This document shows positions 18,952 through 61,447 of a DNA stretch of 64,000 nucleotides, one piece after another. Every line of letters begins with the position of its first letter. The stretch's first letter is position 1. The position numbers were made by a program, and so were the translations under genes. The notes beneath the pieces are model-generated. The model saw only the letters and a list, made by a program, of their open reading frames with translations, searched no databases and was not told the DNA's origin. The stretch comes from Phytoactinopolyspora halotolerans (GTDB lineage: Bacteria; Actinomycetota; Actinomycetes; Jiangellales; Jiangellaceae). The stretch is taken from assembly GCF_010550675.1 (NCBI RefSeq), contig NZ_JAAGOA010000007.1:1-64000 (forward strand). The letters run 5' to 3'.

Positions 18952-19070
18952 GTCGTCTCCATGTGCGTGATGTGCTGCTGTCACTTCGAGCATGCTGCGG
19001 CAGAAGACATTCCACAAGCGAGACTTTCGCACTCTAGACATGAGTAGAACGCATGCCTCAAGCTGAGGGC

Positions 19071-19970
19071 ATGGCCGAACTGACGGTGACTGCGTTGCGC
19101 GTCGCCCAAGCCGTCGTCGGGACCGGGTCGTTCACCGCTGCCGCCGACATGCTCGGGTACACACAGTCGGCGATCTCCCGGCAGGTGGCGGCGGCCGAGG
19201 CGGCGGCGGGCACGCCGCTGTTCGTCCGCGGTCCTCGCGGAGTCGAGCCCACGCCGGCCGGGGCCGCGGTGGCACGACGCGCGGCGAGCGCACTCAGTGA
19301 GATCGACGCCGTGGCCCGTGACCTGGCCGAGCTGACGGACCAGTTGGCCGGGCGCGTCGTGCTCGGCGCATTCCCGACGGCGATGTGGACACTCGCCCCG
19401 CGGACGGTCGCTGACCTCCGCCGGCGGCATCCGGCACTGGCGGTCGAACTGCGGGAGGGGTCCACTCCGGTGCTGCTACGACAGCTACGGTCCGGACGCG
19501 TCGACGTCGCCGTGATCGCGCTCGGACCCGACCTGCCCGCCTATGAGCTGGACGGGCTGCGCACGAGCCGCCTACCCCAAAGCGACCTGCTCGTCGCCCT
19601 CCCCCGCGACCACCGGCTCGCCGACCGGGGTCAGGTCCCGGTCACCGAACTCGCGGGCGAGGACTGGGTGGCCGGCACAGGCCTGCGCGGCGATCCGCAA
19701 TTCGGTCCATGGCCTACATTGCCCAACCCACGCATCGCCCACACCGCACGCGAATGGCCCGCCCGCCTCGGCCTGGTCACCGCCGGCCTCGGGATCACCG
19801 TCGTGCCGAGCATCGCCGCGGATGGCTTACCTGCCGGGATAGTGACCATCCGGATCGACGACCCCAGCTGGCTCGGTCGTACCGCCGTCGCAGCCACCAG
19901 AGAAGAACGCGGGGCAGTCATCGATGTCGTCGTGGCGACCCTCCGCCACGTAGCCCTCAGCCTCCGATGA
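19071..19970 (+). CDS. LysR-family regulator
   Basis: A regulator of about 299 residues with an N-terminal LysR helix-turn-helix (LTVTALRVAQAVVGTGSFTA, YTQSAISRQVAAAEAAAGTP) and a LysR substrate-binding domain (GRVVLGAFPTAMWTLAPR). MAELT at 19071 fits the family; ATG 19053 would add six residues. The TGA stop (19968-19970) lies inside the 51-bp hairpin repeat at 19967. The likely target is the divergent SDR. Confidence 0.9.
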   Translation: MAELTVTALRVAQAVVGTGSFTAAADMLGYTQSAISRQVAAAEAAAGTPLFVRGPRGVEPTPAGAAVARRAASALSEIDAVARDLAELTDQLAGRVVLGAFPTAMWTLAPRTVADLRRRHPALAVELREGSTPVLLRQLRSGRVDVAVIALGPDLPAYELDGLRTSRLPQSDLLVALPRDHRLADRGQVPVTELAGEDWVAGTGLRGDPQFGPWPTLPNPRIAHTAREWPARLGLVTAGLGITVVPSIAADGLPAGIVTIRIDDPSWLGRTAVAATREERGAVIDVVVATLRHVALSLR

Positions 19971-20017
19971 TCATGAACACTAACCGTGCTATGTGAACGG
20001 TAAGTGTTCATGATCAT
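19967..20017. repeat. 51-bp hairpin repeat, copy 1
   Basis: Two 21-nt arms begin and end with ATGATCATGAACA / TGTTCATGATCAT and flank the 9-nt loop GCTATGTGA. There is one mismatch in the stem (arm position 16). The element lies between two convergent genes and supplies both of their stop codons (LysR TGA 19968-19970; XRE TGA on the minus strand at 20014-20016). Further copies are at 25268 and 46374. Confidence 0.95.
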
Positions 20018-20874
20018 GGGAGTTCGAGCTCCGGCACACGCGCCCAGCTTGCGAGCAGGTTCATCGCCTCCCGCGACGAGGTGCCGGCCTCGGTGGTGTA
20101 GACGAAGAGGGCCTGGTCGCGGTCGCCCGGCATGGTGAGGGTCTCGTACTGGACGGTCAGGTCCCCGACGACGGGGTGCCGCAGTCGCTTGGAGCCGAAC
20201 GTGCGCTGATAGACGCCGTGTTCCTCCCACCACGCGCGGAACTGCGGGCTGTGCTGTGCCAGATCGGCGACGAGGTCTCGCGCAGCCGGGTCGTCCGGAT
20301 AGTTGCCGAGATCGAGCCGCAGGTTCTCCACGCATGCCCGCGCCTGCTGGTCCCAGTCCAGGAACAGCGTCCGGGCGGCTTCGTCAAGGAACATCCAACG
20401 GGCGTAGTTGCGCTCCTTCGGCCGCATCGTGTCGAAATCGGTGAACAGCGCCCGGGCCAGCCGGTTGCTCGCCAGCACGTCGGTCCGCCGGCCCAGGATC
20501 AGTGCCGGGTGGCCGTCCAGCGAGTCGAGGAACTGGTACAGGCCAGGTCGCACCCGCTGGACGGTGGGCGTGTTGGTGCGCGGCGTGCCCGCCGTCGCGC
20601 CGACCAGGTGTCCCAGATGGGTCCGGCCCGCCTCGTCCAGACCGAGTGCCCTCGCGATCGCATCGAGCACGCTCTCCGATGGTGTGATCCGCCGACCTTG
20701 CTCCAAGCGCGTGTAGTAGTCGGTCGAGACGCCGGCCAACAGAGCGACCTCCTCGCGACGCAGCCCGGGGACGCGGCGGATCCTGCCGTCGTACGGCAGC
20801 CCGGCCCGCGCCGGATCCACCTTGCTCCGGGCACGGCGGAGGAAATCGGACAGTTCACGGTTGACGCTCGCCAT
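20014..20874 (-). CDS. XRE regulator with MmyB-type ligand domain (2 of 3)
   Basis: A 286-residue protein of the same architecture as those at 13231 and 39623: XRE helix-turn-helix (RIRRVPGLRREEVALLAGVS, TDYYTRLEQGRRITPSE) and MmyB-like domain (HPALILGRRTDVLASNRLARALF, LRHPVVGDLTVQYET). Unlike the other two it has no divergent SDR beside it; a MerR gene lies upstream on the same strand. Its stop codon is inside the hairpin repeat. A dyad at 20900-20914 lies in its promoter region. Confidence 0.92.
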   Translation of the reverse strand: MASVNRELSDFLRRARSKVDPARAGLPYDGRIRRVPGLRREEVALLAGVSTDYYTRLEQGRRITPSESVLDAIARALGLDEAGRTHLGHLVGATAGTPRTNTPTVQRVRPGLYQFLDSLDGHPALILGRRTDVLASNRLARALFTDFDTMRPKERNYARWMFLDEAARTLFLDWDQQARACVENLRLDLGNYPDDPAARDLVADLAQHSPQFRAWWEEHGVYQRTFGSKRLRHPVVGDLTVQYETLTMPGDRDQALFVYTTEAGTSSREAMNLLASWARVPELELP

Positions 20875-20899
20875 TCCCCCATGGTGCCAAGAAACGCGC

Positions 20900-20914
20900 G
20901 GTCCTGCCTGGACC
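20900..20914. promoter_or_regulatory. Dyad GGTCC-TGCCT-GGACC upstream of XRE gene
   Basis: A perfect 5-bp inverted repeat, 26 bp upstream of the XRE start codon at 20874. Its placement suggests an autoregulatory operator, but the arms are short. Confidence 0.45.
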
Positions 20915-20952
20915 GATGAGTCCTAGGCATGCGGGACGCACCGCGCGCCGGG

Positions 20953-21300
20953 TCATGCGGGACGCGCCTCGGCCGCGGCGACGAGCTCGTCGAGTCGCGC
21001 CAGCGCATCGGTCAGCTCCGCGATCCGGCCCTGCAGGCGCGCGCGCTCCGCGTCGAGCATGGCGCGTTGCTCCGCCGTGGTGGTGCCGGTGTCGATGCAC
21101 GGGAGCAGTTCGGCGATGCGCCGGCTCGGCAATCCGGCGGCGTAAAGCTGCTGGTAGAAACGGACGCGGTCGACGGCGTCGGCGGCGTACTCACGATGTC
21201 CGCCTGGGGTGCGATCCGAGGTGAGGAGGCCCTGTTCCTCGTAGTAGCGCAGCGCGCGGACGCTCACCCCGGAGCGTCGAGCGACCTCTCCTATCCGCAT
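20953..21300 (-). CDS. MerR-family regulator
   Basis: A 115-residue MerR protein starting MRIGEVARRSGV (GAGG nine nt upstream). It contains the winged helix (VSVRALRYYEEQGLLTSDRT, HREYAADAVDRVRFYQQLYA) and a C-terminal dimerisation coiled coil (DAERARLQGRIAELTDALARLDEL). There is one Cys (PCIDTG) in the position often used by redox- or metal-sensing members. It is divergent from the SDR at 21376, whose promoter has MerR geometry. Confidence 0.92.
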   Translation of the reverse strand: MRIGEVARRSGVSVRALRYYEEQGLLTSDRTPGGHREYAADAVDRVRFYQQLYAAGLPSRRIAELLPCIDTGTTTAEQRAMLDAERARLQGRIAELTDALARLDELVAAAEARPA

Positions 21301-25267: not shown

Positions 25268-25318
25268 ATGATCATGAACAGTAGCCGTGCTATGTGAACG
25301 GCTACTGTTCATGATCAT
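25268..25318. repeat. 51-bp hairpin repeat, copy 2 (perfect stem)
   Basis: Perfect 21-bp arms flank the same 9-nt loop (GCTATGTGA) as copy 1. Relative to copy 1, stem positions 14 and 17 have changed together with their partners (C-G to G-C, A-T to G-C), so pairing is kept. The last residues of the MarR protein (HDHEQ) and its TAG stop are encoded by the right arm. Confidence 0.95.
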
Positions 25319-25763
25319 GGGGCTGGGTGGGGTCGAGACGATCCCAGATGTCGGCGAGCCGGCGGAGATCGTCGTCGTCAAGCCGGTCGAAGAACAGTTC
25401 GCGGAGGTCTCGATAGTGCCGCCGCCACGCCCGACGCAGCAGTGCCCGCCCTTCCTTCGTCAAGACCGCATCAAGACTGCGGCCGTCGACGGTCGACGGG
25501 CGCCGCTCGATGAGTCCGCGGCGTTCCAGGCGGTCGGCGAGACGCGTGAATCCGCCGGTGGACATCAGCCGCCGCTCGGCGAGTTCCGACATCCGCATAC
25601 CTTTCGGCCCGGCCTCACCGAGAAGAGCCAGCACGCCGTACTCGGCCATGCTGACATTCAGCGGAGCGATCCCCTCCTCCAGGGAACGCCAGATCCGGTC
25701 GTGAGTGAGCAGGAATCCCCGCCACGCCGCATCTTCGAGGGGTCGCAGTCGTTCGGTCGCCAT
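25302..25763 (-). CDS. MarR-family regulator
   Basis: A 153-residue MarR protein (ISMAEYGVLALLGEAGPKGM after correction for strand; winged helix RMSELAERRLMSTGGFTRLADRLERRGLIERRPS). Its exact N-terminal core reads LNVSMAEYGVLALLGEAG. No cysteine is visible, so a one-Cys thiol switch of the OhrR or YodB type is unlikely. It is divergent from the azoreductase at 25848, with a 28-bp palindrome between. The same site recurs before the flavoprotein operon at 26639. Its C-terminus lies inside the hairpin repeat. Confidence 0.9.
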   Translation of the reverse strand: MATERLRPLEDAAWRGFLLTHDRIWRSLEEGIAPLNVSMAEYGVLALLGEAGPKGMRMSELAERRLMSTGGFTRLADRLERRGLIERRPSTVDGRSLDAVLTKEGRALLRRAWRRHYRDLRELFFDRLDDDDLRRLADIWDRLDPTQPHDHEQ

Positions 25764-46373: not shown

Positions 46374-46424
46374 ATGATCATGAACACTTACCGTGCCATG
46401 TGAACGGTTTGTGTTCATGATCAT
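46374..46424. repeat. 51-bp hairpin repeat, copy 3
   Basis: The same outer arms ATGATCATGAACA / TGTTCATGATCAT flank the loop GCCATGTGA (one change from the other copies). There are two adjacent stem mismatches (arm positions 15 and 16). It lies between the convergent propeller-like and GH128-like genes, 16 bp after one stop and 59 bp from the other, so it contains no stop codon of theirs. Confidence 0.95.
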
Positions 46425-58809: not shown

Positions 58810-59239
58810 AATGCGTCGCCCAGGGGAAGCGTGTCGCATCGGAAGGGGCCGTTCCCACACCGCCCTGTAACCGAGCTCGTGCCTACTGCAGACGCAGTAG
58901 CCGCGATTGCCTGCGCAGAGACGACGACTGGCGCAGTTGTGATGCGGATGATGGGACATACACAACCACCTTCAAGGAGCACCAACGAGATGATCGACGT
59001 CACCAACCTCACGAAACACTACGGCAGACACATCGCCGTCGATGACCTGAGCTTCACCGTCAGACCCGGTGTGGTCACGGCCTTCCTCGGCCCCAACGGC
59101 GCGGGGAAGACGACGACGATGCGCATGATCCTCGGGCTCGACAGGCCCACCGCGGGGCGGGCGCTGGTGAACGGCCGACCGTTCGAGCAGCACCGGGCGC
59201 CGCTGCGCGAGATCGGGGCGCTGATCGACGCGAAGGGCA
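58810..59239 (+). repeat. 430-bp direct duplication, copy 1
   Basis: This segment is repeated at 61019-61447 with one single-base indel (CCCAGGGG against CCCGGGG) and no other difference that I see. It covers the promoter region and first 83 codons of the ABC ATPase gene. The boundary at its 3' end (after AAGGGCA) is abrupt. Confidence 0.93.
58883..58900. promoter_or_regulatory. Dyad CTACTGC-AGAC-GCAGTAG upstream of truncated ABC gene
   Basis: A perfect 7-bp inverted repeat, about 90 bp before the truncated ATPase start. The identical site precedes the intact gene (61091-61108), so it is a candidate operator or mRNA hairpin duplicated with the gene. Confidence 0.55.
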
Positions 59240-61018: not shown

Positions 61019-61447
61019 AATGCGTCGCCCGGGGAAGCGTGTCGCATCGGAAGGGGCCGTTCCCACACCGCCCTGTAACCGAGCTCGTGCCTACTGCAGA
61101 CGCAGTAGCCGCGATTGCCTGCGCAGAGACGACGACTGGCGCAGTTGTGATGCGGATGATGGGACATACACAACCACCTTCAAGGAGCACCAACGAGATG
61201 ATCGACGTCACCAACCTCACGAAACACTACGGCAGACACATCGCCGTCGATGACCTGAGCTTCACCGTCAGACCCGGTGTGGTCACGGCCTTCCTCGGCC
61301 CCAACGGCGCGGGGAAGACGACGACGATGCGCATGATCCTCGGGCTCGACAGGCCCACCGCGGGGCGGGCGCTGGTGAACGGCCGACCGTTCGAGCAGCA
61401 CCGGGCGCCGCTGCGCGAGATCGGGGCGCTGATCGACGCGAAGGGCA
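61019..61447 (+). repeat. 430-bp direct duplication, copy 2
   Basis: This copy matches 58810-59239 and contains the same dyad (61091-61108), AAGGAG leader and ATPase 5' end. Here the gene continues intact, so this is the parental arrangement. Confidence 0.93.

Follow-up and report, generated by a model that had tools for sequence, protein, structure and literature searches.

Two convergent genes of Phytoactinopolyspora halotolerans are terminated by TGA codons of a single 51-bp hairpin lying between them, one codon per side. Taken as a whole, the results are probably best explained by a REP-like family of hairpins of about 50 bp at the 3' ends of Jiangellaceae genes, with the supply of stop codons a by-product of the end sequence. 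The features concerned are listed below for the window (the whole analysed stretch of 64,000 nucleotides). The two regulator family names are those of the initial annotation rather than of a domain scan.

19967..20017, no strand assigned: hairpin copy 1, 51 bp, ATGATCATGAACA-N25-TGTTCATGATCAT
19053..19970, + strand: LysR-type regulator ORF, 305 aa, stop in copy 1
19968..19970, + strand: TGA stop of the LysR gene, bases 2-4 of copy 1
20874-20014, - strand: XRE-type regulator ORF, 286 aa, stop in copy 1
20016-20014, - strand: TGA stop of the XRE gene, bases 2-4 of copy 1 from the other side
25268..25318, no strand assigned: hairpin copy 2
25302..25763, - strand: ORF, 153 aa, stop TAG at bases 15-17 of copy 2
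46374..46424, no strand assigned: hairpin copy 3, both adjacent stops outside it, 15 and 58 bp off

The initial annotation placed the stops of both convergent genes inside the repeat. This is exact: at 19967-20017 each stop is the TGA of ATGATCAT, read from its own side. The symmetric ends, which were said to offer a stop in both directions, do so at bases 2-4 from each side. The arms of copy 1 (26 nt including flank) were 92% complementary in the inverted-repeat report, and its folding energies, one per strand, were -42.1 kcal/mol (z -9.2) and -42.8 kcal/mol (z -10.3). The window had six hairpin half-sites; 100 shuffled versions had none. Rfam gave no match in the window at the gathering score; with the limit relaxed to E 10, six weak matches lay near the site, the best of them (the miR-430 model) far below the gathering score.

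Copies and anatomy of the hairpin

Copies with perfect 13-base ends numbered 89 in the whole 7.3-Mb genome holding the window (G000), against 0 for a reversed control pattern. From fetched stretches of G000, 109 copies were catalogued, 87 of them perfect, with a cut-off of at most 2 mismatches per end and 3 in total that limits the variation visible. Over the 218 ends, mismatches fell at base 1 (10), base 11 (6), base 13 (7), base 2 (1) and base 12 (1), and none at bases 3-10. Copies end in ATGATCAT on both sides, with a C-rich left flank and a G-rich right flank. Between genomes the ends are kept and the interiors differ, being CTTTGCCGTG..CACGGCAAAG in G019, TGACC..GGTCA in G020 and diverse in G021.

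Pairing within the stem was analysed in 103 copies. The inner-stem pair 14/38 covaried clearly (81 Watson-Crick pairs vs 47 expected), and weak covariation was seen at 16/36 (64 vs 51) and 17/35 (63 vs 52). Taken alone, the 33 copies of G020 and the 16 copies of 51 nt from G021, which pair at 16-24 of 25 positions, gave little covariation, so selection on base pairing in the hairpin is suggested and not proved; repair between the arms could leave the same signal. The loop is conserved and lies in its two orientations about equally (50 to 53). A directional role of the loop was rejected on this ratio and on the lack of any visible tie to gene direction. Extended pairing of the flanks was likewise rejected: the CCC/GGG columns are conserved, and copy-by-copy pairing was within chance.

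Stop codons within the hairpin

Gene ends were taken from a codon-model caller trained on the fetched stretches, not from annotation. The 109 copies comprised 45 between convergent genes, 47 between co-directional genes, 13 between divergent genes and 4 inside an ORF, the last being excluded from the stop counts. The convergent share (45/105) compares with 17.7% of background gene pairs (p 3e-9); 18.3% of background pairs were divergent. Copies were faced by 137 gene 3' ends, of which 68 had the stop inside the copy and 56 had it 0-30 bp before. When the count was restricted to genes of 149 aa or more, internal stops made up 61 of 125 facing ends. In all, 85 of 105 copies had a facing stop that lay internally or no more than 30 bp away. 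Fifty of the 68 internal stops were on the terminal TGA, 14 at bases 15-17 and 4 elsewhere. Convergent copies (n = 45) held both stops in 11 cases, one in 26 and none in 8, and both were on the terminal TGA, as at the window site, in 6. Internal stops in G000 used the three frames in the ratio 50:15:3 (p 1.5e-11 against equal thirds); the preference for the terminal-TGA frame was not significant in G018 (7/13, p 0.10) or G020 (8/15, p 0.09) alone. When both sides of every copy were read (218 directions from 109 copies), at least two frames were closed in all and all three in 85. Of arm-shuffled hairpins, 79% likewise closed at least two frames.

For a control, the fetched stretches of G000, G018 (taken as Phytoactinopolyspora endophytica) and G020 were searched de novo for strong inverted repeats (n = 275). 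Six lacked genes on both sides, and the 269 placed hairpins comprised 180 with a TGATC base and 89 without; those inside an ORF (7/180 and 7/89) were excluded from the counts. Stops lay inside TGATC-based hairpins at 102 of 234 facing ends and inside other hairpins at 7 of 104 (Fisher p 8.5e-13), with groups slightly leaky both ways: the others include a classic copy with its stop inside (L099) and trimmed or diverged TGATC-like hairpins (L094, L111, L129, L140, L161). Ends 0-30 bp before the hairpin were 109/234 and 47/104. Both groups therefore cluster at gene ends, and the internal stops belong to hairpins with TGA at the base, not to gene-end hairpins generally. The excess of stops inside the repeat that the initial annotation proposed to tabulate genome-wide is thus present, both as 68/137 and against the control.

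Two other repeated hairpins were observed. One, of 48-52 bp, has ends (G)ATGGGATGCG, often a TATA-like centre and no basal TGA (L118:13467, L091:2512, L182:10403, L187:14763 and L120:999 in G000). The other set, of 62-74 bp, has related arms of the kind CTCACGTAACGCTTGG (L193:1435, L193:12468 and L189:17821 in G018; L112:2260, L139:13833, L148:9923 and L187:2219 in G000).

Orthologues were defined as reciprocal best hits among G000, G018 and G020 with at least 60% identity and the target stop outside hairpins. N/X runs, the nine named-genome loci L047-L055 and facing genes at distances above 60 bp were left out. Where the stop lay inside the hairpin, the protein end differed in 14 of 19 comparisons (from 17 genes), and where it lay outside, in 0 of 16 (Fisher p 9.7e-6), an internal stop and a changed end being partly linked by definition. 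The shifts ranged from -17 to +8 residues. The hairpin encodes the added tails DHEH or DHEQ, and the C-rich flank often contributes a final proline. Copy 2 of the window encodes the final residues DHEQ of the ORF at 25302..25763, whose P. endophytica orthologue has no hairpin and ends 5 residues earlier (a net gain of 5 with copy 2). The end position was unchanged in 5 of the 19 internal-stop comparisons, and LysR is a further such case. One empty orthologue, at L189:3709 in G018, has TGATCACGAACGCC at and past the stop, perhaps a decayed hairpin end; if it is a decayed copy, absence of the hairpin is not always ancestral.

Five sites carry the hairpin in both G000 and G018 (L108:14480, L164:7619, L162:8035, L127:7271, L123:7101). 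The gene's own stop lies 14-52 bp before the hairpin in G018 only; in G000 it is missing and the hairpin stop is used. At L127:7271 the stop is 14 bp before the hairpin in both G018 and G020, so that loss of the stop in G000 is the simpler account of this site; the direction of change is based on the agreement of two species at this one site.

At the window site the comparison was mixed. For LysR, 10 of 14 loci were used and 4 distant fragments left out. Among nine relatives lacking the repeat, the protein ended at the identical residue in three (three Promicromonospora genomes), had a tail of equal length in two and differed by 1-10 residues in four. Since LysR aligns to its last residue in 3/9, the hairpin stop is in register with relatives keeping that end. 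An unchanged end without the repeat was what the initial annotation had named as counting against its idea, and for LysR this was found. In P. endophytica the same hairpin lies 3' of the LysR gene and the sequence past it is different; the best XRE match of that genome is on another contig. XRE (8 of 29 other loci used) is 2-17 residues shorter than all 8 compared homologues, just two being close (72% and 68% identical), and its tail is unconserved. The hairpin has probably cut off or replaced the XRE tail; it may first have accompanied LysR and then given XRE its present end. The prediction of changed ends in orthologues without the repeat mostly stands genome-wide (14/19 vs 0/16) and probably for XRE, and not for the LysR relatives with the same residue or an equal tail.

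Distribution and turnover

Perfect-ended copies were found in 5 of 22 family genomes (G000 89, G019 82, G020 34, G021 29, G018 28) and no others turned up in a class-wide sample of 393 genomes; G017, a member of the genus, had none. Conserved neighbour pairs were compared 444 times (mirrored pairs being counted twice, with a loose pattern that takes in sibling hairpins): 24 comparisons had the hairpin in both species and 36 had it in just one. In one filled/empty example a 3-bp gap separates convergent stops in G000 (L100), and G020 has a hairpin there (L227) with both protein end positions unchanged. Ten distinct neighbour pairs share a site between G000 and G018. The interiors at these sites were 77% alike in the better orientation, whereas non-matching pairs reached 75% (permutation p 0.11). 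At 5 of the 10 the better orientation was the inverted one. Hairpin sites persist and their interiors hardly do. As interiors at shared sites are scarcely more alike and half are inverted, copies may have been overwritten or flipped in place.

The loose pattern TGATCRTSA-N-TSAYGATCA gave 0-150 copies per genome over the 22 family genomes, with at least 5 matches in 19 (G017 among them, with 7) and fewer in G003 (3), G002 (0) and G004 (0). Reversed control columns gave 0. Nine genomes from five other families also reached at least 5 matches (G086 70, G188 20, G101 17, G216 14, G026 10, G113 10, G134 7, G053 5, G123 5). Seven of these nine (G188 and G216 excepted) were inspected by eye, with hairpins of 49-57 bp and largely complementary interiors. 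Overall the pattern was matched in 87 of 393 genomes, many with 1-2 matches resembling coding chance. Further end types occur in other genera and families (TGATCATCA, TGATCGTGA, TGATCGTCA). Eighteen sibling hairpins in the fetched stretches, two of them close variants of the main family, had 5 of 23 facing ends stopping on their TGA. Gene-end siblings with ends TGATCATCAAC, TGATCGTGAGCA and TGATCGTCAGTG were seen at L194:13554 and L198:15632 (G018), L169 (G000), and L214:12119 and L221:867 (G020); L169 and L198 are orthologous stretches whose sequences differ and which both look like hairpins. Elsewhere in the window, 58820-59119 and 61028-61327 are identical 300-bp direct repeats, 2.2 kb apart.

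Interpretation and relation to known repeats

In the proposed mechanism, the hairpin has nearly fixed ends (ATGATCATGAACA, base TGATC) around an inner stem and loop that vary quickly. The ends present TGA to genes on both sides, and a second frame meets TAA or TAG at bases 15-17 about half the time, so that a gene whose own stop is lost or deleted beside a copy would as a rule still terminate after 4-17 bases in two of its frames. About half of the facing gene ends are stopped by the hairpin itself, and loss of the own stop next to it therefore probably does little harm. Such tolerance would allow copies a position closer to the final codons, or within them, than is open to other hairpins. The ends are presumably kept for another reason, perhaps recognition by some enzyme or other protein, since conservation covers the whole of TGATCATGA rather than TGA alone; stop supply would then be a useful by-product of the end sequence and not its purpose. 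A wider reading, which we put forward tentatively, joins these hairpins in a superfamily of about 50 bp with the base TGATC[A/G]T[G/C]A in several actinobacterial families. It would do without a REP transposase in Jiangellaceae, have genome-specific inner stems and be overwritten or flipped in place, its mirrored TGA acting as a two-sided fail-safe stop that allows creep into gene ends.

That the copies are bidirectional transcription terminators of lineage-specific design, overlapping stops just by their location at gene ends, is less likely than not. The strong stems on both strands, the 3' location with its convergent excess and some inner-stem covariation (14/38, 16/36, 17/35) agree with it, and a hairpin-less G018 gap at C56:265006 holds, by eye, a different GC-rich, palindrome-looking stretch. 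However, a T-run follows the stem in 3 of 218 directions and in none of the other 215, 13 of 105 copies lie between divergent genes, other strong hairpins at like places seldom overlap stops (7/104), and nearly fixed 9-base ends are, to our knowledge, no feature of terminators. A simple terminator scan of 19000-21000 gave no terminator-like site at the hairpin. The anatomy is unfavourable to the putative 'terminator' of the initial annotation; in E. coli the ribosome represses a terminator several bases past a stop codon almost completely (PMC4824070). Chance or composition, with a TGA-bearing hairpin at gene ends often met by reading frames and no biological role, is improbable. The first stop in each hairpin frame does account for the internal stop positions, the 79% of arm-shuffled hairpins closing two or more frames points the same way, and passive stop supply would also give the contrast with the control hairpins; the G000 frames (50:15:3) are nevertheless not equal thirds, and the nearly fixed ends, convergent excess and persistence of sites are left unexplained.

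A short non-autonomous element (MITE), with a transposase recognising TGATCATGAACA and gene ends as tolerated sites, is a serious possibility that we hold at somewhat less than even. The nearly fixed inverted ends around a variable interior, the 28-89 perfect-ended copies in each of five genomes and the filled and empty sites between species speak for it. No target duplication was recognisable by eye, the spacers being too diverged between species to show one, and no longer element with these ends was noticed in the stretches read. The ten neighbour pairs sharing a hairpin between G000 and G018 mean that present activity is not evident, and a search of the 22 genomes for the Y1 family, the one transposase family searched, found no such domain. 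The strict pattern was absent from IMG/VR viral contigs (0), which also counts against it. Of ATGATCATGAAC genome sites, 201/217 lie within catalogued copies. An autonomous element at C11:106004-107680, bounded by two apparently lone 12-mers, was rejected, both being complete one-mismatch hairpin copies. A phage origin was rejected on the strict result together with the loose pattern, which in IMG/VR had at least 80 loci (82 matches listed), of which 5 had a partly complementary inner stem, matches taken as chance. Filled and empty sites are compatible with the term 'mobile' in the initial annotation; target duplication, parent element and enzyme were not found.

REPs of the GTAG/CGTC kind are expected to be accompanied in the genome by RAYT, a Y1-type transposase. 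The domain of the latter (PF01797) was found in 5 of 14 known genomes used as positive control and in 0 of 22 family genomes, on which ground membership of the REP/RAYT system was rejected. No account of the hairpin family was found in literature on Phytoactinopolyspora or actinobacterial palindromes; literature matches to its end sequences were unrelated by titles and abstract starts and were taken as primers or assays. What is new here is the hairpin family and its lack of a REP transposase, together with the comparison to control hairpins and the evidence from orthologues. They document by orthologues, and not by position alone, the take-over of a neighbour's translation termination by a dispersed hairpin, which hairpins lacking a basal stop seldom achieve. 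An actinobacterial superfamily with nearly fixed ends and in-place interior turnover would make REP-like persistence without RAYTs testable.

Like bidirectional intrinsic terminators between convergent genes, the hairpins lie at 3' ends and can be read both ways; unlike them, they overlap the stop codon, have a nearly fixed end sequence and mostly lack a U-tract. MITEs are resembled in the short length, conserved terminal inverted repeats, many copies and presence or absence between species, but here the whole element is the hairpin, and no target duplication or parent was found. The consensus of 109 copies lacks the unpaired GTAG/CGTC tag that REPs have at one end. PMC3733652 describes GTAG/CGTC REPs as dispersed palindromes mostly between convergent or co-directional genes, the convergent ones mostly less than 20 bp from both 3' ends in two diagrammed species, and already describes GTAG REPs as giving stops. 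The present family is like these REPs in being dispersed, extragenic and adjoining gene 3' ends, and differs in its length (51 bp vs 20-40 bp) and in its stop, which is TGA and is offered from both sides.
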